Assembly (NCBI GenBank): GCA_030682795.1
Contig: JAUXNJ010000001.1
Location: 62,001 to 126,000 of the forward strand
Direction of reading: 5' to 3'
From: Sphingobacteriaceae bacterium
GTDB lineage: Bacteria > Bacteroidota > Bacteroidia > UBA7662
Length of the DNA: 64,000 nt
In this document: positions 10,341 to 29,433 of the stretch, one piece after another
Layout: each line of letters opens with the position of its first letter
Numbering within the stretch: the stretch's first letter is position 1
The notes under the pieces: model-generated
What the model saw: the letters and a program-made list of their open reading frames with translations, nothing else
What the model was told of the DNA's origin: nothing
Databases searched by the model: none
Translations under genes and position numbers: made by a program

Positions 10341-13300
10341 TCACTTCCGTACCACCATCCGGCGCATACCAATGTAAGCACCTTGCTGAACACGTACGAA
10401 ATACATGCCATCAGCTACATTTTGTAAATTTAGCTCCAATTGCACCCGCCCGCTTGCATTGCCCTGCTGCTCAAAATGCACCCTCTGGCCAGTAACGCTG
10501 AGTACTTCCACTTCTAATGTGCCATGGGCAGGTAAATCGAGACTTACCCAAGCCTTGCCATTAGTGGGGTTCGGATAGAGGTTTAGATCTAAATTAAATG
10601 CTTCTCTAACACCCACATTCAACACATTGATAAGGTTAGAGCTGTCAGATGCACAACTGTTACCATCTATCACAATGGCTCTATAACTGCCATTTTGAGT
10701 AATAACTAAGGTTTGGGAAGTCGCACCCGAAATAGCAGCTCCATTCAAATACCACTGGTTTCCTATGGCTATCGATGAGAACAAAGTATCGGAAGTGGCG
10801 GAAATACTAATCACAGGAGTAGAAGGACGCGGATTCACTGTTACCGTTACTGTTGCCGATGTATCAAAACAGCTACTGGTATTGGTTACAATCACACGAT
10901 AATCGCCTGCTAAAGTCACTGAAAGCGTTGGACTGGTTTGGCCAGTTAATACTGCGCCATTGCGTAGCCATACGTAAGTTACACCAGTAACTGGAGACGC
11001 ATTTAATAGCACCGAAGTTCCCTCGCAAATTGTGGTAGCACCAGCAGCTGTTAATCCCGCCGTTGGTAAAGCATTCACAGTAACGGTAACCGCAGCTGAA
11101 GTATCAAAACAACTGCTTGCGTTGGTCACAATCACACGGTAGGCACCGGCTTGCGTAGCCGTTAAACTAGCTGCTGTTTGACCAGCAACTACTGCTCCAT
11201 TGCGCAACCATACATAAGTAACACCCGTGGTTGGTGCTGCATTTAATACCACCGAACCGCCTGCACAGAAAGTGGTAGCACCAGCAGCTGTTAGTCCTGC
11301 CGTTGGTAAAGCATTCACAGTAACGGTAACCGCAGCTGAAGTATCAGCGCATCCCGATATTGAATTAGTCCCTACCACACGATAAGCACCACTTTGTGAA
11401 GCCACCAAACTGTTTCCGCTTTGATTGGCAATCACCGCATTGTTCAACAACCATACGTAGGAAACACCAGAGGTGGGTGTAGCAGTCAAATTAACTGTGC
11501 CACCCAAACAAAAGGTTGTTGCTGAAGCAGCAGTCAATTGAGTACCCGGGCCAGCAGTCACTGCTATGGATCTGGAGACACTACTGCCACAACCGGTTTG
11601 GGGGTCTGTATAAGCGTAGGTTATTTGATGCGTACCAGCGCCAGCTAAGGCTGGATTAAACACGCCATTTACCACACCTGGACCACTATAAACACCCCCT
11701 AGCGGCAAACCTCCACTCAAAGTAAAGGGGTTACCGCTTGCGCAAATAGCAGCAAAAGGGTTTAGGGTGACCACTGGAATATCATTCACTACGATTACGC
11801 TGGTATCGCTGCTACTACAACCTGTCAAACTATCTACATAAGTATATGTCAATACAAATGACCCAATACCTGCCAATTGAGGCAAAAACTGATTGTTATT
11901 CACACCAGTACCACTGTATGTGCCTCCAGCAGGCGTTGCCATATTCAGAACCAAAGGATTGGCATTGATACAATAGCCACCTAAGCTTGGAAAATTAACC
12001 ACAGGTAAGGCACTCACTACGATGGTTGCGGTGGCGGATGCTGTACATGACGTCTGTGGATTGGTGTAAGTATATACAATGCTATGGGTGCCTACCCCGG
12101 CAGTGGCCGGATTGAATACACCATTTGAAACACCAATACCGCTGTAGGTACCACCAACAGGACTGCCGCCAGTTAGATTTATTAAACCTGACGTCACACA
12201 AACGCCAGCAATCGGAGCCAAGGTTACCACTGGCAATGGGTTCACCACCACACTGATGCTGTCCATATTACTACAACCACTGCCGTTTGTAAAGCTATAG
12301 TAGAGTACATGTGTGCCTACACCCGCAAGAGATGGACTAAAAACTCCAGCTTGTATGCCTGGACCACTGTAAGTACCCCCAGCAGGTGCACCAGTTGTTA
12401 GGTTTAAACTGCCTGCACCAACACAAAAATTGCCGATACTTCCAAAAGTAACCGCAGGTAAAGCATTCACAGTAACCACCACTGTGTCGCTTATGGTGTA
12501 ATTCACCCCATCTGTCACGGTGTAAACAACATTCCAAATACCCACACCAGCAATAATCGGATTAAAACTGCCTACGCTAGCAGAAGTAATACCATTACCA
12601 CTCCAAGTACCGCCAGCTGGACTACCTATTAAATTAAAAACAGCCGTTCCAGCACATACCGACCTATCCGCACCAGCATTTACCACAGGTAACTGGTTAA
12701 CTGTCACCACAACGGAATCTACTGAACTACATCCAAAAAGACTTGAAACGGTAACAAAATAGGTTGTGGTAACCGCAGGTGAAGCAACAGGATTGGCAAT
12801 ATTGGTAGCACTTAAGCCTGTAGCTGGTGACCAGCTATAACTCGCGCCACCACTAGCTTGCAACTGGGTGTTATTACCAACAAAAATACTCGCATCTTGA
12901 CCAGCATTCGCAATAGGCAAAGGGTTGATGGAGATGGCCGCAGAACCAGTCATATTGGCGACACAATTACTTGTATTGGTAGCCTCTACTGTATAGGTGC
13001 CTGCCGTCGTTTGTAAACCAAAGTTGAGCGCCTGACCAGTACCTACTACAGGAGCACCAATGGCCTGACCACTAAGTTTCAGTTGATAATTCACGCCATT
13101 GGTTGAACCAGCCAAGCCCACCGCAATACCAGTACCACCAGCACAATAAGCACCACCACCGGTTACATTAAAAACTGTTGGTAGGCTACTCACTTGCGCT
13201 ACAATATTTCCTGAGCCACTGATACAATCTGCCGAGCTGATTTCACAGCTTACAACATCGCCTTGATCTAAATCATTACGAACCAGAGTAGCATTATTAC

Positions 13301-14186
13301 CAGCAGCCACACCATTCACACGCCACTGATAAACGGGGTTATTAATGGTACTCGCTGGCGTAGCACTATAGGTTACGGATGTCCCTCGGCAAACCGCACC
13401 AGCCGGCGCAGCAGCAAGCGTAACAACAACCCCCGAAACCGGATTCACTTTTAAACGTTGAGCGGCACTAAGCGCATTGCCAGTGCCATTACCTACAATA
13501 CAATGGAAATAATTGCCCGAAGCCTGTTGACTCTGATTAGCTATGCTCAAACTGGCACTGGTTGCCCCGCTCACCCCTGCACCGTTGGTTAAGTTGGTGA
13601 ACGATGCACCTCCATCAGTGCTGCGTTGCCATTGAAAAGTAGTAGCACCCGCTGCAGTCACAGTGAATTGAGCCGTGCCTAACTCACAAATTTGCCGATC
13701 ACCATTTGTAGCAGTTACCAAATTGGGTACCGCATTTGTAAACAAAGCACCGTTAATCAATGTCTCACTTATCAATTGGTTATTGGCACCCGTAAACTCC
13801 GTGTACTCTCGATTCCACAACAACTGAGAAACACCACCTTGGGCATTATAAGTAAATATCAGTTTAACCAAAGTATCAGTAACGCTAAGATTCGAACCAA
13901 CAAAGGCCATCTCTACTTGATTGCCATTTAAATTGCTGGTGAAAATACCCCCCGAAACAGGCGTGCCGCTTGTATTAACGGATTGAAAAGTCAATACTGC
14001 AGGATTAAATCTTACTCCTATGTTGAAAGCATTGATGCCTGAGCCCTGACCTAAAATAGGTACTACCACAGTAGCACCAGGTGCAGCTTGGATTACCGGT
14101 ATGGTACCCGTAAACTGCGCGAAAATTTGACTAGAAAGCAGTGTCATTAACACTGTGAACAGACCATTGCGAAATATCTTTTTCAT
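10341..14186 (-). CDS. large secreted repeat protein: N-terminal cohesin-like module, Ig/PKD-like repeats, T9SS type A C-terminal domain
   Basis: Signal peptide MKKIFRNGLFTVLMTLLSSQIFAQ; cohesin-like PVIQAAPGATVVVPILGQGSGINAFNIGVRFNPAVLTFQSV; repeats GGTYSGxGVxNGVFNPxxAGVGTHxIxYTY and AGATTFCAGGSVVLNAAPTTGVTYVWLRNGAVV; CTD LYPNPTNGKAWVSLDL...GMYFVRVQQGAYIGMRRMVVRK. Confidence 0.9.
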   Translation of the reverse strand: MKKIFRNGLFTVLMTLLSSQIFAQFTGTIPVIQAAPGATVVVPILGQGSGINAFNIGVRFNPAVLTFQSVNTSGTPVSGGIFTSNLNGNQVEMAFVGSNLSVTDTLVKLIFTYNAQGGVSQLLWNREYTEFTGANNQLISETLINGALFTNAVPNLVTATNGDRQICELGTAQFTVTAAGATTFQWQRSTDGGASFTNLTNGAGVSGATSASLSIANQSQQASGNYFHCIVGNGTGNALSAAQRLKVNPVSGVVVTLAAAPAGAVCRGTSVTYSATPASTINNPVYQWRVNGVAAGNNATLVRNDLDQGDVVSCEISSADCISGSGNIVAQVSSLPTVFNVTGGGAYCAGGTGIAVGLAGSTNGVNYQLKLSGQAIGAPVVGTGQALNFGLQTTAGTYTVEATNTSNCVANMTGSAAISINPLPIANAGQDASIFVGNNTQLQASGGASYSWSPATGLSATNIANPVASPAVTTTYFVTVSSLFGCSSVDSVVVTVNQLPVVNAGADRSVCAGTAVFNLIGSPAGGTWSGNGITSASVGSFNPIIAGVGIWNVVYTVTDGVNYTISDTVVVTVNALPAVTFGSIGNFCVGAGSLNLTTGAPAGGTYSGPGIQAGVFSPSLAGVGTHVLYYSFTNGSGCSNMDSISVVVNPLPVVTLAPIAGVCVTSGLINLTGGSPVGGTYSGIGVSNGVFNPATAGVGTHSIVYTYTNPQTSCTASATATIVVSALPVVNFPSLGGYCINANPLVLNMATPAGGTYSGTGVNNNQFLPQLAGIGSFVLTYTYVDSLTGCSSSDTSVIVVNDIPVVTLNPFAAICASGNPFTLSGGLPLGGVYSGPGVVNGVFNPALAGAGTHQITYAYTDPQTGCGSSVSRSIAVTAGPGTQLTAASATTFCLGGTVNLTATPTSGVSYVWLLNNAVIANQSGNSLVASQSGAYRVVGTNSISGCADTSAAVTVTVNALPTAGLTAAGATTFCAGGSVVLNAAPTTGVTYVWLRNGAVVAGQTAASLTATQAGAYRVIVTNASSCFDTSAAVTVTVNALPTAGLTAAGATTICEGTSVLLNASPVTGVTYVWLRNGAVLTGQTSPTLSVTLAGDYRVIVTNTSSCFDTSATVTVTVNPRPSTPVISISATSDTLFSSIAIGNQWYLNGAAISGATSQTLVITQNGSYRAIVIDGNSCASDSSNLINVLNVGVREAFNLDLNLYPNPTNGKAWVSLDLPAHGTLEVEVLSVTGQRVHFEQQGNASGRVQLELNLQNVADGMYFVRVQQGAYIGMRRMVVRK
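10861..11580 (-). repeat. three in-register 240-bp (80-aa) tandem repeats encoding Ig-like modules
   Basis: 11041-11100 and 11281-11340 differ at two positions; the period is exactly 240 bp. Confidence 0.85.
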
Positions 14187-14214
14187 GATTGCGAATTTTT
14201 AGGGTTGGATCTGT

Positions 14215-17200
14215 TTATTTCTGGATAATCATACGCTGTTGAACCGACTGCACGCCGCCGTTGCGGTGTAATTCCAATCGGATGAAATACATACCAGCCG
14301 ACAAGCTGCTTGCTGTCCAATCAAACTGGTACTTGCCAGCTACTTGGTAAGCATTTACCGGCATGTCTAATTGCCGTCCAGCAACATCGGTAATTACCAA
14401 GCGTACATCGCCCGATTCAGGCAGCACATAATCAATCTTAGTAAAGCTATTAGCCGGATTTGGATAATTCTTCAAGCTAAGCTCGCTTCCAAATGAACTG
14501 GAAGTCCATACCGGAGTACGCAGGCCAATCATTCGGTAGGCTTCCGCTTGCCGGTTAGTTAACTCACTCTGCCCAACCAATTCAAATGGCAAGCCCCTTT
14601 CGCCGAAGCCGCGGGTGTGAATAATCAATTGAAGTAATTGATCGCCTGCCTCATACTGCGGGAGGGCCCCCGGTGCATACCAACCAATCTTAACCAGCTG
14701 CCCATTTTGCGTGAAGATGGGCTGCATGCTGCTGCCTAGCAATCGAACCGACTCCAATACATCACCTGGATGTAAAATCAACTCTAATTGTAAAGCTGCA
14801 AGTTCCAAACCCTCTTCGAGGTAAAGAGGCACTTCTACTTTTCCAAAAGCAGGCCGACCCGTAGCCAAAGTCTCTTGCGTAGTAAGCAACACTTTTGGCA
14901 ACACACGTAACCCTGGCTCATAACTACCATTCACATCACCCATACAAATGGCACGTACATTAAACGAGATGTTTTGACCTGCCATACGTAAAGTATCAAC
15001 TGAATATGCCCAATCGCCAGTAACGAAACTGCTGATATTATTCACTGCTCTTTGCAATGTTAATAAAGCATCCGTACCATTTATAGCACCATCATTGTTT
15101 ACATCGGCAGCCTTTACCTTCAAGCCAGTCAACAATGTTGAATCAGCAAAATAATTATTGATCAAAAAGGCATCAGCCGAACTAACCCCGCCCCAAGGCT
15201 TGTTGGTAGTGCCGCGCAAAATGTAAGGGGCATTAGCCAAGTTCTGAAAAAGATAGCTCGCCGCAGCATTTACATTGGTAGTAGCTAATTGTGCACCTAA
15301 GCTATCGGCTAATACCACGGTACCACTATTCAGTGGGCTAAAGAAAACATTATCGTACACCAGCTTGCCCTGTATATTCTTACCAAGCGAGGCGGAATCA
15401 ATGGTTATGATTACTGAATCAACAACACCACAACCATTCGCACCAGTTACGCTAAGATAATAAATAGTGGTAACAGCCGGTGAGGCCGTAGGACTAAGCA
15501 CATTGGTAGCACTCAAACCTGCTGCCGGACTCCAACTGATGGTATAAGGTTGTACTCCTCCCGTAGCTGTTGCATTCAATACCACGGAGGCACCCGGCGC
15601 AATCGCCATGTCGATGCCGGCATCAATGCTCGGCGTTGGATTCACAATAACAGCAACACTACCTGTCAACACACAGCCTTCGGCTGTTGTGGCGGTAACG
15701 GTATAAATGGTGGTTGTGAGGGGCCTCGCTACAGGGTTAGCAATATTAGTTGCACTCAAACCTGTAGCCGGGCTCCAATTATAGCTCACACCAGCACCTA
15801 CATAACCCGTTAAACTTGCTCCTAAAGAAACAGCACCACCTCTACAAATGGTTTGGTTATTACCGGCATTAATAACTGGAACATATACCATCACCGTATC
15901 TCGGTTAGTACAGCCGCTGGCATCAGTACCTGTTACGATGTAACGCGTGGTAGCCGCAGGGTTAGCCATTGGATTAGCAATATTAGTCGCACTTAATCCC
16001 GTTGCCGGAGACCACGTATAACTCACACCACCCGATGCATTTAATTGAACAGCATTGCCATTGCAAACTGTCAAATCCGCTCCTGCTTGAATCAGAGGTC
16101 GAGAATTCACCGTAACCACAACCGTATCGAGCGAAACACATCCGCTGTTGGTCAAACCAGCCACGATATAGGCAGTGGTTTGCAATGGACTAGCTACTGG
16201 ATTTGCAATATTATTGGCACTCAAACCTGTAGCTGGAGACCAAAAATACTGAGTAGCGCCACTGGCTTGTAATTGCACACTACCTCCGGCACACACCGAT
16301 ACGTCTGGTCCAGCAGTCATATTCGGGTCACTAAAGATATTTACGGTTACCGTATCTGTAATACTACAGCCAGACGTATTGAAAATTTGAACACTGTAAG
16401 AAGTACTCACGATGGGTGAAACCACGATGCTTGCACTGGTAGCGCCCGTACTCCACAAATAACTACTCCCACCTGTTGCTATTAACGTGGAGGAGGATCC
16501 CAAACAAATGGTTTGGTCAGCACCTGCACCGCCCGTTGGCAAAGCCAAAACAGTAAGTGAACGCGTAGCTACATTACTGCATCCCAGTGCATCGGTAAAG
16601 CTGTAAGTAATGATGTGTGTGCCTACACCTGCCTGAGCTGGGTTAAATTGGCCCTGTGAAACTCCAGTACCCGAAAATACACCTCCCGTTGGGAAAGCTT
16701 GTAAGAATACAGGAGCAGCACCAAGACACAGGTTACTTAGAGCAGGGAAGGTAATGCTTGGCAAGGCATTGGCGGTAATACCTCCATTGATCAAGGTCCG
16801 AGGGTATTGGTTGCCAGCCAAGTTGCTAATTTGACCACTGCCAGCACTAACTGTATCCCAAATAAGGGTGCTGCTACCATTGGCTGTGAAATTTAAATTC
16901 AGCAATGTACCTGTACCCAAGCTCACTGGATTAAATCCGAACCAACTCAAATTCACTCGGCCATTACTTGCACTTGTAGCCAAAGTAGCTTGCAAAGCTG
17001 CAGGCACTCCGCTCACTCCTGTAAAAATAAGATTCGATTGGTTGTAAAGGATCCGAAGCGAGAAAGTAGCTACTTGGTCGAAATTCTGGATTGAAATAGG
17101 CACTACCACACTTCCACCAGCACATATCGCTTGATTCGGTAAACTTACCACAATGGTTGCTACATTTGGATTCACCGTTAAAGTAACCGCCTGGGAGTTT

Positions 17201-20200
17201 ACTGAAGGAGGGCACTGGCCATTGACCACTACACGAAACTGCTTACCCGAAAAGCTCAATGGGGTATTCGCAATATTCAATGTTGCCGTGGTTACACCTG
17301 AATAAGGTGTTTGATTTGAAAGATTGACCCAATTACCATTCGCCAATTCTTGCCACTGAAACGTACTGGCATTGTTGGCAGCTACTGTGAAGCTACTCGA
17401 GCTTCCTTCGGTTATTGTAACCGGACTGGGTTGCTGTGTAATGGTTGCGGCAGTTCCTGCCACGTTTACTGAGCCATTGCTGTAGGTGGACAGCAATACG
17501 GTACCATTAAAATCAGCAAACTCATTGGCACCTTGCTGTGTCTGGTTCCATACTAACTGACTTTGGCCCAATACCCTCGCTGTAAATTGGAGCGTAATTA
17601 AGCTACCATTGCCGATGGTGGCTGGGTTAATATTAAACCATGAAGCCCTAATTTGGTTTCCTACACTATTGACAATAGCACCATTTTGGATGGCTGCATT
17701 GGCGGTAAATCCTGTATATTGTAATACAGCAGTATCATAACCCAAACTCAAAGAGAAGGCGGCTACATCAATAAAATTGGTAACCATTATTGGTACCGAA
17801 ATGGTCTGGCCTAAGCAACCCGAGAAGCTACCAACACTAGCACCAACCGTTAAGTTTGAGGCGGCTACGGTCAAAATAACTGAGTTGGAATTCAATCCGC
17901 CCTGACAATTGCCAGTGAGGCGCACTCGATAGGCTGCACCACTTAAAACTGGACTCGCAATCACTCGAAGCACGGCAGATTGTGCGCCCGAATACACAGC
18001 ATCATTGATCAAATTAGTCCATACACCATTGATCAGACGCTGCCATTGATAACCAGCCACATGACTAGCTTGCACACTAAAAACTGCTGTATCACCATTA
18101 GCGACTAATTGACTACTAGGCTGTTGGCTGAATGCAGGTGCAGGATTAGGCTGTATCTGTTGGTTGGTATAATTTGCGGCACGCAGCTGCCCGTTATCGT
18201 CGGCAAACTCGCAATTTCCTGGTGTTTGTAAATCCCAGATCAAAGTAGCGCTTGCCTGAACGATATAACGATAGGTTATTAAGGTCGTTTGCGATGGCAA
18301 ATTTAGTGGCTGAACATTAAACCAAGCAAAAGCTACTCTGTCAGCTGTATTGCTTACGCTTAAATTAGTTCCTAAACTTGGATGTACATTTTTAAAGCCT
18401 ACATACTGTAAAGCCTGCACCGGATTTTGCAAGACCAAGGAGATGGCACTGATCAATTGAAGATTATCCACTTTAACATGTATATCCAGGGTATCACCCA
18501 CGCAAGCTTGACCCGACTCCAAGTAAACCTGAATGGCAGGTAACTGACCAGGATTGACCAGCAAATCGACAGCATTCGAAAACACTGGATTAGGACAAGA
18601 ACCCAACAATTTCACGCGATACTGACGCCCATTGAATGCCAAAGGCACATTGTTCAATTGTAAAGTCGCTGTATTTACGCCACTATGAACTGAATCATTG
18701 ACCAAACTGAGCCATTGACCATTCGAAAAATATTGCCATTCATAGCTTTGCACATCTGAAGCTACCACCGTAAAACTGGCTGAATTACCCGCTACAATGC
18801 TTACACTACTTGGATGATTTTGAATGGTAATGCCTACTGAACTTACCAAGCCATTCACAAAATTGGCAGGTATTATGTCTCCATTAATATTGGCCAACTC
18901 ACAATTACCAACAGTTTGAAGATCCCATTGCAAAGGCGAATTACCTCGAACCACAAAACGCATGTCAAATAAATTGCCTGGAACAAGGTTGATAGCATTC
19001 ACCGAAAACCAAGATGCAAATACTTTGCTATTGTTGGCATTCACTATAAGAGCACTGCTAATTGCAGGTAAAGCATTGGCAAAACCCACAAACTCCAATT
19101 GCTGCATATTATAGTTCAATGCCAGAGAAAGTGCAGCAAGGCCGTTGATTTCAGAATTCAAAACGGGTATCGACAACGTATCGCCGATGCAACCCACAAG
19201 GTTAGCTGGCAATGAAATTGAAACCATTGGGCCACCTCCCGCAGGGGCACCTAAATAAATAGAATCTACGTAATAAAATTCTCCGGTACCTGGATTGCCA
19301 AAATCATAAAAAATCGAAAGAACTTTATAGGATGTAGCTAAATTCAAACCTGGACTCGCCGTTGAAAAGTCGAAAGTCAAAGTTTGCCACCCAGCTGTGG
19401 TGGTATTCCGTTGTACCTCTGCATAATTGCTCGGGTTGTTAAGCTCTTCAACCTTTAAAAGAATTGGCTTATTTGCTGCTGGCGCAAAAATCTTAGCAGA
19501 AATACTCGTTGCCCCAGGAGCAAAAGCAATAGCATTGGTCAATCCATTTGGCGGACTCACTGTAGTACCTGCCCAAGTCTGTGCCCCAACTGTTTTTTCA
19601 GTCTTCAAGGTCATATTTGAGGCATTGGTCGGATCGGCTACTAAAAAAGAAGCGTTTCCGCCAAAATCATTAAAGCTATAAGTTAAGCTTGGATCGTCCC
19701 ATGTAATGGGTAAACTAATGGGACTAATTGTACTGCCACCAGTTACCAATAGCGTGATGGGCGCTGAAATTGCGGGAGCAGGGCAGCTGCTGAACACAAG
19801 CACCCTGTAAGTACTATTATTAAGTGACAGAGGTGCGTTATTAATCGCTAAAACCGCAATAGTTGAGCCAGTATAAATGCTGTTATCCTGCAGATTATCC
19901 CATGATTGACCATTCCAAATCTGCCATTGATAGCCAGTAGCTGCCGAAGCACTTACCGAAAACATGGTCGATCCATTCAATGGTATTTGAGTATTACCCG
20001 AAGGCTGTGAATTAATCACCGCTCCCGAAGCATTTACAGCGCCATTGCTGTACCCCGCTGCAATTGGATCCCCGTTGATATCGGCAAATTCACAATTACC
20101 AGACGTTTGTAAATCCCAAACAAGCGACGATGACCCACCAACTACAAATTTAGCTTCGAATAAAACCCCCTGGTTCAAATTAATCGCACTAGTGGCAAAC

Positions 20201-20487
20201 CACGATGCCAATACCTTGCCACCAGTAGCATTCACCAATAAGCCTGCACTAATTTGTGGAGAAGCGTTGGCAAAGCCAACATACGTCAATGCCTGTTGAC
20301 TGTACCCAAGTGCCAACGAAATGGCTGCAATACCATTACCACCAGAGGCATTAATTGGCACTGTAACCGTATCGCCAGCACAGCCTGAAACTGTCCCGGC
20401 AGTAATCGCGATGTTTGATTGGGCATGCGCGACGGAGAAGGTGAGGAACATCCACACCAGTAGCCATAATTTATTCATCTTTTTCAT
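14215..20487 (-). CDS. scaffoldin-like secreted protein: five cohesin-like modules alternating with Ig-like modules, CBM-like module, PKD-like repeats, dockerin-like module, C-terminal cohesin-like module, T9SS type A domain
   Basis: Signal peptide MKKMNKLWLLVWMFLTFSVAHAQ; repeated GCxGDTxxxPI...ISLALxYxxQxLxYVGFAN...WDLQTxGNCEFADINGD; dockerin-like KAADVNNDGAINGTDALLTLQRAV; CTD NYPNPANSFTKIDYVLPESGDVRLVITDVAGRQL...GMYFIRLELHRNGGVQSVQQRMIIQK. Confidence 0.9.
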   Translation of the reverse strand: MKKMNKLWLLVWMFLTFSVAHAQSNIAITAGTVSGCAGDTVTVPINASGGNGIAAISLALGYSQQALTYVGFANASPQISAGLLVNATGGKVLASWFATSAINLNQGVLFEAKFVVGGSSSLVWDLQTSGNCEFADINGDPIAAGYSNGAVNASGAVINSQPSGNTQIPLNGSTMFSVSASAATGYQWQIWNGQSWDNLQDNSIYTGSTIAVLAINNAPLSLNNSTYRVLVFSSCPAPAISAPITLLVTGGSTISPISLPITWDDPSLTYSFNDFGGNASFLVADPTNASNMTLKTEKTVGAQTWAGTTVSPPNGLTNAIAFAPGATSISAKIFAPAANKPILLKVEELNNPSNYAEVQRNTTTAGWQTLTFDFSTASPGLNLATSYKVLSIFYDFGNPGTGEFYYVDSIYLGAPAGGGPMVSISLPANLVGCIGDTLSIPVLNSEINGLAALSLALNYNMQQLEFVGFANALPAISSALIVNANNSKVFASWFSVNAINLVPGNLFDMRFVVRGNSPLQWDLQTVGNCELANINGDIIPANFVNGLVSSVGITIQNHPSSVSIVAGNSASFTVVASDVQSYEWQYFSNGQWLSLVNDSVHSGVNTATLQLNNVPLAFNGRQYRVKLLGSCPNPVFSNAVDLLVNPGQLPAIQVYLESGQACVGDTLDIHVKVDNLQLISAISLVLQNPVQALQYVGFKNVHPSLGTNLSVSNTADRVAFAWFNVQPLNLPSQTTLITYRYIVQASATLIWDLQTPGNCEFADDNGQLRAANYTNQQIQPNPAPAFSQQPSSQLVANGDTAVFSVQASHVAGYQWQRLINGVWTNLINDAVYSGAQSAVLRVIASPVLSGAAYRVRLTGNCQGGLNSNSVILTVAASNLTVGASVGSFSGCLGQTISVPIMVTNFIDVAAFSLSLGYDTAVLQYTGFTANAAIQNGAIVNSVGNQIRASWFNINPATIGNGSLITLQFTARVLGQSQLVWNQTQQGANEFADFNGTVLLSTYSNGSVNVAGTAATITQQPSPVTITEGSSSSFTVAANNASTFQWQELANGNWVNLSNQTPYSGVTTATLNIANTPLSFSGKQFRVVVNGQCPPSVNSQAVTLTVNPNVATIVVSLPNQAICAGGSVVVPISIQNFDQVATFSLRILYNQSNLIFTGVSGVPAALQATLATSASNGRVNLSWFGFNPVSLGTGTLLNLNFTANGSSTLIWDTVSAGSGQISNLAGNQYPRTLINGGITANALPSITFPALSNLCLGAAPVFLQAFPTGGVFSGTGVSQGQFNPAQAGVGTHIITYSFTDALGCSNVATRSLTVLALPTGGAGADQTICLGSSSTLIATGGSSYLWSTGATSASIVVSPIVSTSYSVQIFNTSGCSITDTVTVNIFSDPNMTAGPDVSVCAGGSVQLQASGATQYFWSPATGLSANNIANPVASPLQTTAYIVAGLTNSGCVSLDTVVVTVNSRPLIQAGADLTVCNGNAVQLNASGGVSYTWSPATGLSATNIANPMANPAATTRYIVTGTDASGCTNRDTVMVYVPVINAGNNQTICRGGAVSLGASLTGYVGAGVSYNWSPATGLSATNIANPVARPLTTTIYTVTATTAEGCVLTGSVAVIVNPTPSIDAGIDMAIAPGASVVLNATATGGVQPYTISWSPAAGLSATNVLSPTASPAVTTIYYLSVTGANGCGVVDSVIITIDSASLGKNIQGKLVYDNVFFSPLNSGTVVLADSLGAQLATTNVNAAASYLFQNLANAPYILRGTTNKPWGGVSSADAFLINNYFADSTLLTGLKVKAADVNNDGAINGTDALLTLQRAVNNISSFVTGDWAYSVDTLRMAGQNISFNVRAICMGDVNGSYEPGLRVLPKVLLTTQETLATGRPAFGKVEVPLYLEEGLELAALQLELILHPGDVLESVRLLGSSMQPIFTQNGQLVKIGWYAPGALPQYEAGDQLLQLIIHTRGFGERGLPFELVGQSELTNRQAEAYRMIGLRTPVWTSSSFGSELSLKNYPNPANSFTKIDYVLPESGDVRLVITDVAGRQLDMPVNAYQVAGKYQFDWTASSLSAGMYFIRLELHRNGGVQSVQQRMIIQK
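15037..15199 (-). other. dockerin-like module inside the 2090-aa protein
   Basis: WGGVSSADAFLINNYFADSTLLTGLKVKAADVNNDGAINGTDALLTLQRAV: a degenerate and an intact Ca-loop (DVNNDGAINGTD), with a further GDVNGSYEPG downstream. Confidence 0.7.
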
Positions 20488-20503: not shown

Positions 20504-21532
20504 TTAGTTTGATTTCATAGCAATGGTACTTCCATTAGCGACTTTATTATGCCAATGAATGTATAATTGTTGATTAGGAATTAGCAAGTTTGGTTGAACG
20601 TGTATACGTTGATTGTGCGCTTGCAAATTTTCTTGCCAAAGCAGGCGACCAAGTACATCGCGAATGGTTAACTGAACAAAAGGATCCAGCTCAAAAGCCG
20701 GATGTTGGATCCAAAAGAAAGATTGCATCGGATTCGGATACAATCGCGTAGGCTGAAACGAGACAGAAGAAACTGCCAAATTGATGGAAAAGCCCAGTCG
20801 ACCTAACGCACTCCAGGTCGTATCCCCATTGTAGACGCCACCCATCCGCCACCATAATATGCTGTCTCCTTGTGCTGGGACCATAGCAGGTATCGGATAT
20901 AAATAAGTTGTATCGGGCATGACCGTTGATAATACCGTAGTTCCAAACATTGAATCCCGTGCAACCTGCAAGAGGGCTTGTTGCATGCACATATTACGCC
21001 GGTATAAAAACAAATAACTAGACTGATTTAAATTGGATAATCGCAACGGGTTTAAGGGCTGAGGAGGGCGAGCCCCCGAAATTTGTACGGTGCCACTTAT
21101 AAACTGAACCCCCAAAGGAGTGCCTTGGATATTGGTGATTTCACAATTCCCTGGCGTTTGTGTATCGAATTGCAAAGCGCTTGTGCCATAATTCGATGCG
21201 CTCCAACGAATTACCATCAAGGTATCATTGGCTATTTGCACCGGATTCAAAGAAAACCAAGCCACAATGAACTTCCCTGCATTGGTGGTAATCAAAGCAT
21301 TGGCGATGCCTGGATGCACATTTCTTACCCCAAGATAGTTCAGCCGCGTAGTATCGTAATTGACTTTGATAGAAATAGACGCAATGCCATTGAGTTGACT
21401 CGCCAAAATGGGCGTTTCCGCCACCCCTTCGCAAATGGAAGCCGATACCATCGTAACAGACGTCGCCCATGCCTTCTCACTTACGAGAACACTCAGATAA
21501 ATGAGCAGCGGCAGAAGCATTCTAATTTTCAA
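20504..21532 (-). CDS. single-cohesin secreted protein with degenerate T9SS-like C-terminus
   Basis: TSVTMVSASICEGVAETPILASQLNGIASISIKVNYDTTRLNYLGVRNVHPG...QFDTQTPGNCEITNIQGTPLG matches the cohesin modules of the neighbouring gene; C-terminal RLYPNPMQSFFWIQHPAF. Confidence 0.8.
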   Translation of the reverse strand: MKIRMLLPLLIYLSVLVSEKAWATSVTMVSASICEGVAETPILASQLNGIASISIKVNYDTTRLNYLGVRNVHPGIANALITTNAGKFIVAWFSLNPVQIANDTLMVIRWSASNYGTSALQFDTQTPGNCEITNIQGTPLGVQFISGTVQISGARPPQPLNPLRLSNLNQSSYLFLYRRNMCMQQALLQVARDSMFGTTVLSTVMPDTTYLYPIPAMVPAQGDSILWWRMGGVYNGDTTWSALGRLGFSINLAVSSVSFQPTRLYPNPMQSFFWIQHPAFELDPFVQLTIRDVLGRLLWQENLQAHNQRIHVQPNLLIPNQQLYIHWHNKVANGSTIAMKSN

Positions 21533-21544
21533 GGGTATGAATAA

Positions 21545-21572: not shown

Positions 21573-21579
21573 GGTGAAT

Positions 21580-24500
21580 TTATTTGATTATCATCCGAAT
21601 AATAGCCTTCTCCTGTCGTGTAGCTCCCTGAACCTGCAATTCACAGAAGTATACGCCTGCACTCAAAGCTGCACCCTCAAACGAGTGCTCATGTTTGCCA
21701 GCACTTCTATCTCCTAATTCAAGTTCCGTAATGGCACGACCCGTTACATCTGTCACGATCATCTTCACACGTCCTGCTTCCGGCAACTCAAACGCAATGG
21801 TTGTTTCATGTCGGAAAGGATTTGGATAATTATTGAGCGATAATGCATTCGAAGTTGGAATATTCTGACTGCGCAGTCCAGGCATCAAAAGTTTGGTATT
21901 ATGGAGTGGTTGTGCAACCTCATCAGCAAATTCACTGCCTTCGCCAACCCAAATATCAAACTGATTAACACCATTTACCAACACATAGGCTTCTAATTCT
22001 AAAATCACTTGATCATTAGCAACGATCCATCCTCCCAAATCGAACCAACCAAACGAAATCACACCATTTGCAATGTTCACTTGTGTCTGATGCTCCAGCG
22101 CTGCATTCATGAGTTTGAGCGCCACAGGCTGCAATTGAGCAGCATTATAATGCAGTTTAAGCGACATCGCTCCTAAATGTGCCCCGTTTTCAATTCGAAT
22201 CGGCAATTTCACGAGTTTATTGGAAGTCGCAAGTAAATCCCCATCATTCACTAAAGCCACCTTAGGAGCCAAACGAACATTCCCCGGATTGTAGGACCCA
22301 TCCACATCGCCCACACAAATACCCTGCAAATTGATTGTTGTTAATTGTCCTTCCAAAACCTGTACACTTGCCTCATTAAATATCCAATCCCCAGCTGCAA
22401 AACCCGTTGGCGTACTCAAAGCGGCTTTCACGCCTAGATAACTTGATGCAGGCGGATTGAGCCAAGGATAAATGTAAATGTCTTCTCCAATACCATCTTT
22501 CTGCTCTAAACAAGGAACACCACTACCCCCACATGGTCCACTTTCACGGAACACCATGCCAATGTTATCAATGCTACTTCCAGCAGGCATTGGGCCATTA
22601 GGTGCCTGATTGAAGTAGGCCACCGGATTCATAGCCAAACTCCATTTACCATTCCCCAATGAGGTCATTTGACCCGGAGATGCTGGGTTCCCCCAATCAC
22701 CAACTACATATTGCCAACCAAAATTCGGGTCAATCGAGGCTCCTGAATGCATATGTATGCTGGTTGTTTGAGCCAGATTACCACCCAACAAGGCATCGAA
22801 ATACACCCGCAAATAATTTGGATTATTCAACAAGCCTGTAAAACGCTGTGCCACTTGCAACGCATCTGTACTATTAATAACATTATTGGCATTTACATCT
22901 GCTGCTTGCAATCGGAGACCTGTTAACGGTTGCAGACTTGTAAAATGACGTGCAATTCGCAAAGCATCTGTAGCATTAACACCACCCCATGGTTTGGTAG
23001 TAGAGGCCCGCAGGATATAATTACCTACTGGCGCATTGGTAAACAAATAATTACCATTTGCATCGGTTTGAACTGCGTCCCGTATGGTGTGATCTAAGGC
23101 ATTATAAGCAATCACATAGGTATTCGACATCGGCGTTTGTGCATTATTGGCATAACGTACTTGGCCACCTACAGTACCTGTTGGCTGATTGCCACCAAAA
23201 ACTTGGCTGTTCCATTTCCAAACACCACCTTGTCCATTATTGGCACTTAAGCCACCCGACCAGCCTACTGAGGGCCCAATAAACTTCACTGCGCCATGGT
23301 ACTCCCCATCAATGTTTGACCAGTTAACGTTATTCTCCAAATAAGCCGTTCCTAAAGGACCTGAAACCATCAAAATCAGATTGTTGGCATTCGGCACGTA
23401 GGCCATTGATAAAATATTCGCTAAACCTCCATAGGGTCGAGGAAGTTGCATCCAGCTGAATCCATCATCATTTGTCACATATAATTTAGACGTCGGCGCA
23501 TGATAAGCTGCACCTTGACCGCTGTCGGTAAAAGCAATGTAGTATTGACCGCCCCCTGCTGGTAAATTACGCGTTGTCCAACTTAAACCTTGGTTGTTAG
23601 TTACAAACAAACGACCACCCACTGTTGGCCAATACATGTTTCCATTAGGCGCAACACTCATCGTTGCAGTTGTCCCATATTCATCAAAAGCAAACGGCAT
23701 GGGTATGTTTGTAACCATTTGCCAAGTGTTGCCACCATTAGTGGTACGGTAAATTTCCCAAGCACCCGTTAACTGATTCGGGTCACCCACGACCACGCCT
23801 TCATTCTGATTCCAGAAATGTGAAAAATTCGGAAATCCACCGTTATTAAATACATTCAAGCGATTCCAGCTATTACCACCGTCAACCGTTTTATATAATC
23901 CTTGACTAGCAGAATCTCCAAATAAGGTGACAAATGCTATTTGCTCATCAAACGCCATGATATGAGAGGTGCCTAGTTGTGTCGTATTTGGAATACTGCC
24001 AGCATTCCAGTTGTTACCACCATCGGTAGTGCGATAGAAGTTTTGCAATAAACCAGTATTGGTTGATTTATCTCCTAAGGCCCAAGCCGTGCTATTACTA
24101 ACTGGTTCGATATTCCGGATTATTTGATTCGCAATTGGCTGGTTCAAATTCTGAAGCGACCAAGGACTCTGCGTAAAGCTTGATTGCGATACTGGCAAGT
24201 AACCAGAAAGATAAGCACAATTACCACCTGCGGTTTCAACATATAATCGGTAATCACCTGTAGTTGTTGCTGTGTAGCTGTTTCCATTAGCACCAGCAAT
24301 GGGCAAGTCGTTTAACAACCAAGAATAGGTGTATGCAGCTGAAGTGGCAGGCGCAAACGCCAGGCTAACACCCGACATTGAACCAATCAGCTCAGCCAAC
24401 TCCATACCTGATTCGTTGGATATAATCAGCACGGGAATGGTCACAGAATCACCTGTTAAAGGGTTGGTTATAAAGCTTGGAATAAATTGATTGATGCCAT

Positions 24501-27500
24501 TATTCACAACAATAACAGCTATAGCGCCAGCACGTTGGGCATTTAAAGCCTTATCACTAATTGGACAGGCTCCTCTGAATACCATCGCTACCTTACCTTG
24601 CAAGCTAGTTCCAGTAATCGGACCACAGGCCAATGAATCACCCACACTGCCATCCCTCGCAATCACCACATCACCAGTAAAATTAGCGGCAGTACCCTGC
24701 GGTACATTGATCCAACCACTACTTGCCAATACATTTCTGTAGGGAAGCTGACGTACAGGGCTTCCTTGAAGATTCAAAGTCAATAGCTGTTGAGGCACAG
24801 TGCTAAAATTAGTATTGACCGCCTGTCCTGCCTGATAATGCAAAGGTCCATTCACATTTACATTGGCCTGGTGAGGCATGGTCACTACCACATTAATACT
24901 ATTTGTGGTGTCAATACACCCATTTATAAAATGTACAACAGCTACATATTCTCCGTCTGAACGGGCATCCACATTAGTTCCATTCACTTGCGGAATGAAT
25001 CGGCCATTCACAAACCATTCAACAAAGTTAATTGGATCACCACTATTCACAGTTAAGGTTACAAACTGGTCTAAACATAAATTCGTATTGCCCTGAGCCA
25101 CCAATGTAGCTTGACAAGTAGCAGATTGCGGAACCATTACTGCAGCTATGGTAAACACCGTTTGGGATCCAAAACCGTTAGTAGACCAAACACCGTTGCT
25201 GCTAAATACGGCAGTAGTTGGCTCACCAGTATAGTTGTTCGTAGCTATGTAATTACTCAAGGGGTCTGTATTAGCAAATACTTCAAAAGCAAATCCTGTA
25301 TAAGTCACAGCGAATAAATAGCGTGCACCATTTGTAAGTGTAACCCCTGGCTGGTTTGTTACGTTGTCAAACATAAGCATACTGCGCTCCTGGCTAATAC
25401 CATTGTCGGGATATAAATAATCGCCTCTTCCTACTTGAGTCATCTCATTTACCTCCACAAAGCCGTTTGAATCTAGATCGTCCCAACGATAAACAGCACC
25501 TTCTATGAGCTGATTGGTCAATACTGTTGGCGCGGTAGCAGTATACGAGAACTTCAATTCACTTACTTTCATCCGCCCAGCTTGAGGGGCTTTAAACCAA
25601 TTACCAACTGTGTAAGGCCCAGCTACCGAAGGACGGTTACCATTACCAAAAATATTCAAGCCACCTGATCCATTTAAACTAGAAGCAGCATACAAATCCT
25701 GGGTGATCCGCAAATCCTGGAAATAAACATTGTCGGCGGGGCCCTCATCACTTCCTATGCTTGGTAGCACTTCATAACGAATACGGTGGTTACCAATACC
25801 CAAGACCGATAAATCAAACGGCGCAGTCACCGCAACATGCGATTGACCTAAACCAATGCTCGCGCCGCTTACATTTTGAAAATAAACCACATCCTGTGAG
25901 GAGCCATTGCGCCACACTTGCACATTTAGATTAAAGCTGGTAGATGATAAACCGATGTTCTGTACCTGCGCACCTAAGTCAACTACGTAATCGCCCGGCT
26001 GGCTAACTAAGTTTAATGGAAGCGCAAAAGCCAAAGGCTTGATTACATCGCCACTACCTATTACCAAATCTAAATTGTTGCCCCCAAACTTATTGCCTAT
26101 AAATGCTCTTACCAAGCCATTATCAATCATAGGTCTTAGATTGACACCATCAAAGGCAGAAATCATGACCACCGGAATGGTAACATTGGCCCCGTTCACA
26201 CCACCCGACATATTGATGAGACCTGGTTGATTGTTTACGATAATTACACCTACAGCACCAGCTCGTTGAGCCGAGAGTGCTTTTAAACCAAACTCACATG
26301 CGCCACGATACAATACTACAATCTTACCTTTCAATTCAGCCGTATTCATTAAAGTGCCATCACAGCCTAAAGAGTCGCTTTGCGCTGCCCTACCAACAAC
26401 TAATGGTCCTTGAACCGCAATGGTATCAATCTCATAATTCCAAAGACTGCTTGCTCCTGCACCCAAGCCGTAGCCATAACTACCAGCTGCGGTTGCTGGA
26501 TCGGTGATATCAAATGTAATGCGAGCAGGATGTGTCCCTAAAGCAGCGAACGTGCGGAAGAGAATTTGATTGCCGAAAGTAGTTTGACCAGCACTATCCG
26601 TAACAAAGGTCCGTGCATAATACTGTGTTGCAGGAAGTAAATTGCTGATAGCCGCATAAATGCTGTTTCCTGTGCTGGAATCAACAACCGACATGTTCGC
26701 CAAGGTTGGAGCTGGGTTCTGACCATAAACAACTCCTTTTGAAACAAAATTGGCACCTGAAGTGTGGCTGCCTACAACAACTGCACTGCTGAAACCACGA
26801 CTTCTAATCGCATCAGTGAAGATGGATTGGCTTCCAGCAACATTACAGTTTCCAAATAAATAGGCAGGCAAAACGGTTGCTGTGCTAGGCACTACCGTAT
26901 GCCGATTTGGCCCTATTGCACATGCTGCAGGAACCACTTCGCTATAATCCACATAAAAACCAGTGGTTGTATCTAAAAATCCCCAATCATTTCCATTCAC
27001 AAACTTATACTCAACGGCTGTACCTGCAGCAATTTGAGCAGTGTACGTATATACATTAGGCAAGGTAGGGTGCGCAGTCATTGGACTATTAGCGGGATTC
27101 CAACCCTGGAAATTACCAGCCATGTGAACCCCCGTTGACCGAATAACCTGACCCGTCATGTCAACTTGGAAGGTTACTGCTACCAATGGACCCAAACTAG
27201 TATTGCACTGACCATAAATAACTGCCGGTAAAACCACATCGCTTGTAGGCACCACCAAGCCACGGTTACCACTATTATTAAAATTACACGCGGATGGAAC
27301 TTGCTCCTCACTTCCCCATGCATTGCCATTGATAAACTTATACTCAACAGACGTACCTTCAGGAATACTTGCAGTATGTTCCCAAACATTGTTACCAGCG
27401 TTGATCATTGAGGTCGAACCCGGGTTCCAAACAGGATTTTGGAAACTTCCCGCAATGTGAACGCCTAAAGGAGATACATTAATACCGGTCATGTTTACGC

Positions 27501-29433
27501 GGAAAGTCACGTTGCGATTCACCGGCATGGTTGACAACCCACTCACCACCAAACTAAAGTGCTGTGCACTTGCTAAGCTCCCCTTATGAGATACCCGCAC
27601 CAGATAGTTACCCGGCGTCGGATTATTGAGCAAAATCTGCTCCACATTATCGCGGTTGTTGTCTCCTGATGTAGCTGCGGCAGCAGGATTTGCTGGGTTC
27701 AATACCCATGGTTGGAATTGGGTAGAATCACTCAATCGAATGATGCGTACATCCAAATTATTTATCAAATTACTTGTTGTGCCATTTAAGATGTACGGAG
27801 CTGTGGGTGCAGCAGGATCTGTCCACGACAAAGTCGCTTTCAAAGGTGCTGTACCATCGGTATAAAGGTTGTAGGTATACGTTGCACCGTTGGCTAAAGA
27901 GGCTTCGACAAAATCATGCTGGCCATTCTTTCTAGCTACCACATCCGAGGCCTTGGCTGTATTCATCAAACCCCATCCATAAACATAATCAGGACCAGGG
28001 TTCGTGCCGGCTTCATCGGCTGTATGAATGGCAATTGCCTTCAAGGTTGCTGCTCTCATTATGTTATCGCTATACAACTGCTTATGCCGCTGCTGCAACA
28101 AGGCCAATGAACCGGTCACCGTTGGTGAGGCCATGGACGTGCCATTCCAGCTGTCATAACTGGTATTGCTTGTTGCGGTTGCAGAATACACTTGCACACC
28201 CTTGGCAACTAAATCCGGCTTTATTCGGCCGTCGTCCGTTGGACCCCAACCATGAAAAGAGCTCGAAATTACCTGAGAAGCATTGGTGTAGCCACCGGAA
28301 ATCCCTTGAACCGCCCCTACAGTTAAAACATTTTTAGAAACACCTGCATGTGAAATGCAATCAAAGCCACTCGTACCACCTGCTTTCTCACGCGTAAGCG
28401 ATGAGTTAACCCAAACCGAACCATTCCAAACCCTGTGAGATGTACCCGCAGCCGGACCATAATTCCGATCATTTCCAGCGGCCTTGACAATTAAATAATT
28501 AGGAGCACTGGCAGCAATTAAATCCCAATCGCGTGATTCTATTGAATACCGTCCATAATTTTCATCAACAGACCCAGTAGTGCTTCCAAACCAATACCAA
28601 TTATCACCTGTATTTTCAATATTTCCAAAATACCAGCCAGTAATTATTCCGTAAGAATGATTAGAAAGCAACATACCTGCAGAAGCTGCATTAGCCATTT
28701 CTGCTTCGTCGTTACTCCAATCATAGGCATTCAAAACACCTTGATAAGCCATTCCTTTTGCAAGAGGATCTGTACCAGCTCCAATCATGGTAGCAGCCAC
28801 ATGGGTTGCATGGCTATTCAGTATATTCGCGCCATCAGCCATGGTAACTCTCCCGCCAAACTCTTGGTGGGACACCCTCACAGCTCCACCATCCCATTCC
28901 CCCATTGGGATACCTTGTCCTGATAATGACAAACCTGACAAGCCACCTGGCCAAACCTTGTGAGTTGAAATGGTTTGTGCACCCCCGACATTTGACGTCA
29001 CATAAAAAAGAGGTGCGGCATTACCATTAAAACTTTTATATTGTGCTATGGTATTTCCTGAAACTATTTGAGTCATCGGAATGACATCCGTTTTGCTTAG
29101 AAGGAGCTGTTGCGCCGCTCTATACTCGCTTTGAAATCTCGCAGCTAATTGGGCTAAGGCTACTCTATCGGTAGGGTCTCCTTTGTCGAAAGCAGCTAAC
29201 TGCGCAGTATTGCTAACTTTAAACATGCCTGTTTGATCTTCAAGCTGTTGAAGAATTGGCAATTCAAGCGCATTAGATTTATTGAAAACAGATTGAATTT
29301 CTGAACTTGCCTCAGTACGGGGCGCAGCAGGTGCTTGGGAGGACAACAACACACTGTTTTGAGCATAGGCAACAAAAGCTGTAGCTAGGCACGCGCAGGC
29401 AGTCATCAGCGCGACTGACAATAATCTTTTCAT
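21580..29433 (-). CDS. multidomain secreted subtilase (S8) with CBM-like repeats, two PA domains, Ig-like module, BNR/Ycf48-like propeller, dockerin-like and cohesin-like modules, T9SS type A domain
   Basis: Catalytic segments GEWDGGAVRVSHQEFGGR, NSHATHVAATMIGAG, NGTSMASPTVTGSLALLQ; PA domains (KGKIVVLYRGACEFGLKALSAQRAGAVGVIIVNN, QGKVAMVFRGACPISDKALNAQRAGAIAVIVVNN); YRTTDGGNNWNAGSIPN; CTD NYPNPFRHETTIAFELPEAGRVKMIVTDVTGRAITEL. Start at 29433 (MKRLLSVALM) preferred over 29460. Confidence 0.92.
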   Translation of the reverse strand: MKRLLSVALMTACACLATAFVAYAQNSVLLSSQAPAAPRTEASSEIQSVFNKSNALELPILQQLEDQTGMFKVSNTAQLAAFDKGDPTDRVALAQLAARFQSEYRAAQQLLLSKTDVIPMTQIVSGNTIAQYKSFNGNAAPLFYVTSNVGGAQTISTHKVWPGGLSGLSLSGQGIPMGEWDGGAVRVSHQEFGGRVTMADGANILNSHATHVAATMIGAGTDPLAKGMAYQGVLNAYDWSNDEAEMANAASAGMLLSNHSYGIITGWYFGNIENTGDNWYWFGSTTGSVDENYGRYSIESRDWDLIAASAPNYLIVKAAGNDRNYGPAAGTSHRVWNGSVWVNSSLTREKAGGTSGFDCISHAGVSKNVLTVGAVQGISGGYTNASQVISSSFHGWGPTDDGRIKPDLVAKGVQVYSATATSNTSYDSWNGTSMASPTVTGSLALLQQRHKQLYSDNIMRAATLKAIAIHTADEAGTNPGPDYVYGWGLMNTAKASDVVARKNGQHDFVEASLANGATYTYNLYTDGTAPLKATLSWTDPAAPTAPYILNGTTSNLINNLDVRIIRLSDSTQFQPWVLNPANPAAAATSGDNNRDNVEQILLNNPTPGNYLVRVSHKGSLASAQHFSLVVSGLSTMPVNRNVTFRVNMTGINVSPLGVHIAGSFQNPVWNPGSTSMINAGNNVWEHTASIPEGTSVEYKFINGNAWGSEEQVPSACNFNNSGNRGLVVPTSDVVLPAVIYGQCNTSLGPLVAVTFQVDMTGQVIRSTGVHMAGNFQGWNPANSPMTAHPTLPNVYTYTAQIAAGTAVEYKFVNGNDWGFLDTTTGFYVDYSEVVPAACAIGPNRHTVVPSTATVLPAYLFGNCNVAGSQSIFTDAIRSRGFSSAVVVGSHTSGANFVSKGVVYGQNPAPTLANMSVVDSSTGNSIYAAISNLLPATQYYARTFVTDSAGQTTFGNQILFRTFAALGTHPARITFDITDPATAAGSYGYGLGAGASSLWNYEIDTIAVQGPLVVGRAAQSDSLGCDGTLMNTAELKGKIVVLYRGACEFGLKALSAQRAGAVGVIIVNNQPGLINMSGGVNGANVTIPVVMISAFDGVNLRPMIDNGLVRAFIGNKFGGNNLDLVIGSGDVIKPLAFALPLNLVSQPGDYVVDLGAQVQNIGLSSTSFNLNVQVWRNGSSQDVVYFQNVSGASIGLGQSHVAVTAPFDLSVLGIGNHRIRYEVLPSIGSDEGPADNVYFQDLRITQDLYAASSLNGSGGLNIFGNGNRPSVAGPYTVGNWFKAPQAGRMKVSELKFSYTATAPTVLTNQLIEGAVYRWDDLDSNGFVEVNEMTQVGRGDYLYPDNGISQERSMLMFDNVTNQPGVTLTNGARYLFAVTYTGFAFEVFANTDPLSNYIATNNYTGEPTTAVFSSNGVWSTNGFGSQTVFTIAAVMVPQSATCQATLVAQGNTNLCLDQFVTLTVNSGDPINFVEWFVNGRFIPQVNGTNVDARSDGEYVAVVHFINGCIDTTNSINVVVTMPHQANVNVNGPLHYQAGQAVNTNFSTVPQQLLTLNLQGSPVRQLPYRNVLASSGWINVPQGTAANFTGDVVIARDGSVGDSLACGPITGTSLQGKVAMVFRGACPISDKALNAQRAGAIAVIVVNNGINQFIPSFITNPLTGDSVTIPVLIISNESGMELAELIGSMSGVSLAFAPATSAAYTYSWLLNDLPIAGANGNSYTATTTGDYRLYVETAGGNCAYLSGYLPVSQSSFTQSPWSLQNLNQPIANQIIRNIEPVSNSTAWALGDKSTNTGLLQNFYRTTDGGNNWNAGSIPNTTQLGTSHIMAFDEQIAFVTLFGDSASQGLYKTVDGGNSWNRLNVFNNGGFPNFSHFWNQNEGVVVGDPNQLTGAWEIYRTTNGGNTWQMVTNIPMPFAFDEYGTTATMSVAPNGNMYWPTVGGRLFVTNNQGLSWTTRNLPAGGGQYYIAFTDSGQGAAYHAPTSKLYVTNDDGFSWMQLPRPYGGLANILSMAYVPNANNLILMVSGPLGTAYLENNVNWSNIDGEYHGAVKFIGPSVGWSGGLSANNGQGGVWKWNSQVFGGNQPTGTVGGQVRYANNAQTPMSNTYVIAYNALDHTIRDAVQTDANGNYLFTNAPVGNYILRASTTKPWGGVNATDALRIARHFTSLQPLTGLRLQAADVNANNVINSTDALQVAQRFTGLLNNPNYLRVYFDALLGGNLAQTTSIHMHSGASIDPNFGWQYVVGDWGNPASPGQMTSLGNGKWSLAMNPVAYFNQAPNGPMPAGSSIDNIGMVFRESGPCGGSGVPCLEQKDGIGEDIYIYPWLNPPASSYLGVKAALSTPTGFAAGDWIFNEASVQVLEGQLTTINLQGICVGDVDGSYNPGNVRLAPKVALVNDGDLLATSNKLVKLPIRIENGAHLGAMSLKLHYNAAQLQPVALKLMNAALEHQTQVNIANGVISFGWFDLGGWIVANDQVILELEAYVLVNGVNQFDIWVGEGSEFADEVAQPLHNTKLLMPGLRSQNIPTSNALSLNNYPNPFRHETTIAFELPEAGRVKMIVTDVTGRAITELELGDRSAGKHEHSFEGAALSAGVYFCELQVQGATRQEKAIIRMIIK
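22831..22995 (-). other. dockerin-like module inside the subtilase
   Basis: WGGVNATDALRIARHFTSLQPLTGLRLQAADVNANNVINSTDALQVAQRFTGL, homologous to the module at 15037-15199. Confidence 0.7.

Follow-up and report, generated by a model that had tools for sequence, protein, structure and literature searches.

Rotated dockerins and a candidate T9SS-exported cohesin-dockerin assembly in a Bacteroidota genome

The question raised by this locus is whether four neighbouring genes, the products of which combine cohesin-like and dockerin-like modules with T9SS sorting domains, specify the parts of one docking assembly at the cell surface, or a set of surface proteins that happen to be built from similar modules. 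The genes lie within a 64,000-nucleotide stretch of contig JAUXNJ010000001.1 (hereafter the window; all coordinates below are window positions on the minus strand), belonging to a host genome of 3.14 Mb in 47 contigs.

Gene order and modular composition of the locus

In agreement with the preliminary description, the ORF check recovered four consecutive minus-strand open reading frames (order D-C-B-A in the reading direction), encoding protein A (1281 aa; 10341..14186), protein B (2090 aa; 14215..20487), protein C (342 aa; 20504..21532) and protein D (2626 aa, or 2617 aa from the ATG at 29433; 21580..29460). The intergenic gaps (D-C, C-B and B-A: ~46, 15 and 28 bp) are so short that A-D are likely to form a single transcription unit. 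The approximately nine cohesin-like modules announced earlier could all be placed (one in A, five plus a C-terminal one in B, one in C and one in D), the two dockerin-like modules were borne out by matches above the Pfam dockerin cut-off in B and D, and the clear T9SS type A ends ascribed to three of the proteins were found in A, B and D, which pass both the Pfam and the NCBIfam cut-offs. The same gene order, the search for which in other genomes had been proposed at the outset, was recovered in another species of the same genus (G002), where the genes are spread over two contigs, one ending with D, C and the first part of B and another beginning with the remainder of B and with A (i.e. the break falls inside B), at 46-56% identity to the window. 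In G002, the orthologue of D (L093:1368-10486) comes as two ORFs of 2264 and 781 aa, the latter holding the dockerin, and this division may reflect a frameshift or an assembly error.

The locus cohesins and dockerins are, by homology, true members of their families. Protein B matches the Pfam cohesin family (PF00963) with 95.9 bits (cut-off 24.1; E 3e-27; 3 stretches), and a profile built from eight mutually alignable locus cohesins (the ninth, B cohesin 6, was left out) retrieved cohesins only when run against all PDB sequences (best E 6e-6). The AlphaFold model of B cohesin 1 (20032..20421; pLDDT 96.5) adopts the cohesin jelly-roll fold, and the 50 PDB matches listed for it by Foldseek are cohesins without exception (E 1.5e-9, TM up to 0.85), the best one (TM 0.85) being a Clostridium acetobutylicum cohesin complexed with its dockerin. 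The structural check suggested in the preliminary description was thus passed by this module, and the generic Ig/FN3 stalks named there as the finding that would undo the cohesin reading are ruled out for the N-terminal cohesins by these all-cohesin PDB and Foldseek matches. The Pfam Dockerin_1 cut-off (PF00404; 22.9 bits) is exceeded by B (30.5 bits), D (31.9 bits) and a further protein encoded on contig 21, outside the window (the C21 protein; 34.3 bits), and the two dockerin blocks of the locus matched dockerins only among the PDB sequences.

Protein B, described earlier as scaffoldin-like, lives up to this designation: it has five N-terminal cohesins alternating with Ig modules, and no catalytic domain was found in it by Pfam, as expected of the non-catalytic multi-cohesin scaffoldin of a cellulosome. 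Cohesin 1 is followed by cohesins 2 (18835..19230; own-genome profile match E 2.8e-52), 3 (18142..18540), 4 (17458..17859) and 5 (16768..17166), the last three located by the own-genome cohesin profile and, for cohesin 4, by the whole-genome search as well. Between cohesins 1 and 2 lies a CBM-like module (19228..19743) suspected to be a jelly-roll, with weak PDB matches (8qx6 at E 9e-4; the CBM of laminarinase 16A at 0.35). The remainder of B consists of PKD/Ig_7 repeats, a transthyretin-like module, a dockerin (14908..15225; profile positions 8-51), a degenerate cohesin 6 (14512..14898), recognised by its fold, and a T9SS type A CTD (14218..14466; TIGR04183 34.9 bits, Pfam 31.3 bits). The block formed by the transthyretin-like module, the dockerin and cohesin 6 was modelled with high confidence (AlphaFold pLDDT 90.8, pTM 0.87), and in this model cohesin 6, in spite of its degenerate sequence, is predicted to resemble 2xdh and other cohesins (Foldseek).

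Protein D comprises a peptidase S8 domain (residues 214-497, 27970..28821; Pfam 93.9 bits), two CBM20-like modules, two PA domains, sortilin/BNR-like repeats and a transthyretin-like module, followed by a dockerin with an inserted domain, a cohesin-like module (21874..22275; just past the Pfam cut-off in the whole-genome search and matched by the sibling profile) and a T9SS type A CTD (21583..21828; TIGR04183 37.6 bits, Pfam 33 bits). Its catalytic triad (Asp190, His217 and Ser442, the first of these just N-terminal to the Pfam match) is intact and set in canonical motifs. The enzymatic-subunit role put forward for this subtilase is plausible. Protein A, a candidate anchoring protein, carries a signal peptide, an N-terminal A-type cohesin (13728..14117; placed by module search and by its clade in the cohesin tree), Ig_7/PKD-like repeats and a T9SS type A CTD (10350..10580; Por_Secre_tail 44.9 bits, TIGR04183 34.8 bits). 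Protein C consists of a cohesin (21071..21466; its closest relative among the cohesins of the tree is B cohesin 3), a short linker domain and a T9SS type A domain that falls below the Pfam/NCBIfam cut-offs. The cohesins of A and C are not recognised by Pfam alone, and their identity rests on the sibling cohesin profile.

Elsewhere in the window, group II intron pieces (29834-30384, about 550 bp) lie between D and a tRNA-Val (TAC) gene (30507-30582; the sole tRNA in the 64-kb window); they comprise D1-D4 (30214-30384; Rfam 143.8 bits), a second D1-D4 model (30097-30183; Rfam) and an Intron_gpII end (29834-29910; Rfam), with no maturase ORF seen among them. A 592-aa protein (4222-6000) has an end that resembles, by eye, a type B (gliding-associated, CHU_C-like) sorting domain.

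Dockerins with a divided calcium loop

The Pfam matches of these dockerins start at profile position 8 of 57, the first half of calcium loop 1 being absent there, and the module ends, ~30 residues past helix 3, in a GDVNGSY motif (14920..14940 in B). In place of the two contiguous F-hand loops (DxNxDG..N..D) of PF00404 they have one contiguous, canonical loop 2 and a loop 1 that is divided between an N-terminal GGVNATD and a C-terminal GDVNGS; when joined, DVNGS and GGVNATD give D-V-N-G-S-G-G-V-N-A-T-D, which in essence reproduces the consensus of the undivided loop 2. Five residues are invariant in the 55 aligned dockerins (D18, D41, D52, G96 and D97 in alignment numbering), of which D18 is position 12 of loop 1, D41 and D52 are positions 1 and 12 of loop 2, and D97 is position 1 of loop 1. 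In protein D, an inserted domain of ~145 aa separates the N-terminal part of the dockerin (up to helix 3; 22822..23001, profile positions 8-56) from the closing half-loop GDVDGSY (22291..22311; dockerin profile E 8e-10). Moreover, dockerin proteins of relatives that have no CTD stop exactly after the closing motif, from which we conclude that the motif closes the module. On the basis of these sequence patterns, we infer that the C-terminal GDVNGS would meet the N-terminal GGVNATD and so complete calcium loop 1; in the model of the B block the motif sits at the edge of the confident region (pLDDT 96 and 83 for residue blocks 141-150 and 151-160).

Across the broad set of dockerins, the C-terminal motif accompanies the lack of the N-terminal half-loop and is missing from modules with a canonical loop 1. 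The six apparent exceptions of a first motif scan were all explained: three are GDVNGT variants, one is a canonical loop in a shifted register, and two are D and its orthologue, whose motif, coming after the inserted domain, lay beyond the scan range. Other odd rows turned out to be tandem dockerin arrays, contig edges and one mis-hit. In many other Bacteroidota the canonical dockerin prevails, and it occurs also in one genome (G005) of the same family. We further observed split-loop dockerins, with closing motifs GDVNGDW/GDVTHNW and beside cohesins, in a locus of Cloacimonadota (L030, JACNFI010000011), so that the rotated form is not confined to Bacteroidota. No report of a permuted or rotated dockerin was found in the open-access literature, and this order of the module appears to be so far undescribed.

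Dockerin and cohesin classes, relatives and alternative readings

A tree of 78 dockerins separates those of scaffoldins, as a single clade (support 0.998), from the enzyme dockerins. This clade contains window B, its G002 orthologue, both giant proteins of a related genome (G009) and the dockerins of loci L117, L100, L128 and L109; other multi-cohesin proteins (L061, L058, L056 and L043) bear enzyme-type dockerins. The A-type cohesins likewise form one clade (support 0.921), all members of which come from genes directly downstream of such a scaffoldin and which spans three genera (A in the window, A in G002 and, in G009 and G008 respectively, a 3254-aa frame and a 1503-aa A-like protein); next to the scaffoldin of the same class in G004 (L100), the neighbour is not A-type. 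We argue that these class-specific neighbours in three genera speak for a specific pairing of the B dockerin with the A cohesin, comparable to that of scaffoldin and anchor in clostridia, and their sequence relationships suggest that the A-type neighbours of scaffoldins may constitute an anchor tier.

The family to which the host belongs is rich in both modules. Cohesins occur in 15 of its 16 other genomes (the most, 62, in a genome of 2.0 Mb) and dockerins in the same 15 (up to 24), and the sister-genus genomes, 1.2-2.2 Mb in size, have 4-62 cohesins and 7-24 dockerins each; a profile search retrieved neither module from a genome of the same genus (G001) or from three genomes of the same order, and their absence from the former indicates that the system is dispensable. 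Cohesin and dockerin counts are correlated (rho 0.83, 20 genomes). Among 396 Bacteroidota genomes, dockerins are present in 110 and cohesins in 43, and 38 of these 43 have dockerins where 12 would be expected (p 1e-18, a value that ignores shared ancestry and includes proteins holding both modules). Furthermore, 13 of 28 Bacteroidota loci chosen only for a dockerin have a separate cohesin ORF at most 1.5 kb away; such pairs of separate dockerin and cohesin genes (<=1.5 kb apart, dockerins mostly canonical and unrotated) were observed in other Bacteroidota families (L129, L130, L136, L139, L140, L141, L144, L147, L148, L151, L153, L154 and L155).

The extremes of this repertoire are two open frames of G009 (5737 and 5272 aa, on contigs 10 and 15, L111 and L112), both running off their contig ends, which hold 18-20 cohesins in closely similar series and one scaffoldin-class dockerin each. 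In G004, dockerins are borne by an S8 peptidase, two M43 metallopeptidases, an alpha-amylase, a CotH protein, an esterase, a beta-lactamase-fold hydrolase and a CBM48 protein. Several dockerin enzymes of relatives (S8, alpha-amylase, M43) are devoid of a CTD and end in the dockerin, and most complete multi-cohesin proteins of relatives do carry a sorting domain, which is the division of labour predicted by a scaffold-client system. A Fib_succ_major-like domain was also noted at or close to the end of some dockerin proteins in which no CTD was detected (L101, L103, L118 and L123; Pfam match in L101 and L103). Taken together, the comparative sequence data (co-occurrence, adjacency, distinct classes and CTD-less dockerin enzymes) provide good, though indirect, support for cohesin-dockerin pairing.

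The host genome itself offers a leaner picture. It has three dockerin proteins (B, D and the C21 protein) against ~ten cohesins, which a profile search of the genome confined to A-D and the C21 protein, and a more sensitive 55-sequence profile found no further dockerin in it. The C21 protein, cut by the contig edge, has PA, GEVED and starch-binding-like modules, a dockerin and its own cohesin. Pfam detected no cellulase domain in the three dockerin proteins, and the dockerins of this genome are not borne by the cellulose- or hemicellulose-degrading enzymes that typify a cellulosome. A PorU sortase is encoded (1345 bits; present also in five relatives) alongside 106 T9SS sorting-domain matches genome-wide, and this sortase together with their CTDs qualifies A, B and D as T9SS type A cargo, C falling below the cut-off. 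All three dockerin proteins bear their own T9SS sorting domain, so that docking is not needed for their surface attachment, and in all three a cohesin-like module adjoins the dockerin, which makes a pairing in cis or a spacer role possible.

This last feature nourishes the strongest rival reading, which we consider unlikely: the transthyretin-like module, the dockerin and the degenerate cohesin would form a rigid spacer that holds the protein away from its T9SS anchor, and the N-terminal cohesins would be partnerless adhesion or spacer modules. Besides the adjacent cohesin-like module in every dockerin protein of the host, this reading draws on the folding of the three modules as one confident block and on the profile-based finding that 17 of the 21 dockerin proteins with a CTD have a cohesin-like module between the dockerin and that CTD, as against 0 of the 11 that are devoid of a CTD, by which the dockerin-adjacent cohesin is probably part of the anchor end. 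However, the CTD-less enzymes of relatives end right after the dockerin, without a cohesin-like module, so that binding in trans would still be compatible with such a stalk. Nor does a spacer call for distinct scaffoldin and enzyme dockerin classes, and the gain and loss of both modules together across genomes, as well as the adjacency of cohesin and dockerin genes, speak against it.

That the locus encodes T9SS-anchored adhesins for particles or cells, with cohesins serving as carbohydrate- or protein-binding beta-sandwiches and dockerins as relics, we regard as quite improbable. The long, Ig/PKD-rich architecture and the CBM-like modules would suit such a function, and the Ig/PKD repeats of B match the Aureispira grappling-hook protein in the PDB (E 2e-41, generic repeats and that region only); the calcium-loop aspartates, on the other hand, are invariant in 55 dockerins, which is not what relics would display, and in relatives the dockerins are joined to catalytic domains. 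Module shuffling is common among T9SS cargo, and this, along with the three dockerins of the host genome, might be taken to mean that unrelated surface proteins share mobile beta-sandwich modules and form no system at all. We deem this very remote, since the four-gene order is kept across species at 46-56% identity and the class-specific neighbours recur in three genera.

The reading that we favour, and hold to be probable, is that of a T9SS-exported, two-tier cohesin-dockerin assembly at the cell surface, which would degrade protein and bind starch-like glycans. As to binding, partners, location and substrate in this locus, the evidence points to the following arrangement. B would act as the primary scaffoldin, its five N-terminal cohesins holding the enzyme-class dockerins of D and of the C21 protein, and its own dockerin, of a separate class, would most likely dock on the A-type cohesin encoded by the next gene. 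A, B and D would be exported and anchored through their own sorting domains, and the likely task of the assembly would be proteolysis and the binding of starch-like glycans at the cell surface, rather than an action on cellulose. A wider proposal, on which we are evenly divided, is that Bacteroidota and relatives possess a separate, circularly rotated dockerin class, cut inside calcium loop 1, which one largely uncultured Bacteroidota family has expanded into two-tier, T9SS-exported, proteolytic/amylolytic cellulosome-like systems (with up to ~20 cohesins per protein), and that CTD-bearing cohesin proteins may serve there as carriers that bring CTD-less dockerin enzymes to the surface.

Relation to known cohesin-dockerin systems

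Small Bacteroidota genomes that hold dozens of each module together with a T9SS would add one more Gram-negative phylum to those with cellulosome-like assembly, here with export by a different route and with enzymes that for the most part do not act on cellulose. Cohesin and dockerin are one of the tightest known protein pairs, of which the rotated dockerin would represent a structural variant useful for designed scaffolds, and the system lets one ask whether proteins devoid of a sorting domain cross the T9SS by docking on carriers. Cohesin and dockerin sequences have been reported from rumen Bacteroidetes bins (PMC6071333), and the cellulose degraders of Bacteroidota are said to be without cellulosomal dockerins, cohesins and scaffoldins (PMC5831590, PMC6247017).

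The claim that such a system would be unprecedented was too strong, since a T9SS-linked, cellulosome-like cohesin/dockerin complex with peptidases has already been proposed for Ca. Stygibacter (Cloacimonadota; Williams et al. 2021, PMC8542988). According to the excerpted account of that work, the likeness extends to tandem cohesins on a scaffoldin-like protein, to the conserved CTD by which this protein would attach to the surface, and to dockerins on S8 and C25 peptidases, a GH57 amylase and a GH18 protein, reminiscent of the locus and its relatives, with protein, starch and chitin as proposed substrates. It differs in belonging to another phylum and in its scaffoldin (3,755 aa, with CBM2/CBM3), and the same excerpted account makes no mention of dockerin classes, of a second tier or of dockerins with a split loop (PMC8542988). 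The split-loop form is present, however, in another genome of that phylum (L030, above).

Among Planctomycetes, the planctosome of the freshwater Nemodlikiaceae is, in the portion of its description considered here, a further Gram-negative counterpart, with cohesin- and dockerin-bearing peptidases in a proposed complex; it differs by a Lamin-tail anchor and few modules, and no T9SS is described for it in that portion (PMC6461901). In the clostridial cellulosome (CipA type I/II), as in B, a multi-cohesin scaffoldin carries a dockerin of another class than that of the enzymes, and an anchoring protein neighbours the scaffoldin, as here. Furthermore, the enzyme-class dockerins of the present system have Ser/Ala-Thr at the cohesin-contact positions 11-12 in both F-hands, as in clostridia (positions: PMC4728124). 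The clostridial system, in contrast, has cellulases and SLH where this one has a peptidase, starch-binding modules and a T9SS CTD, and it shares neither the rotated dockerins nor the components with an anchor of their own. As a whole, the system has the appearance of a Gram-negative counterpart of the cellulosome that is oriented towards proteases and starch.
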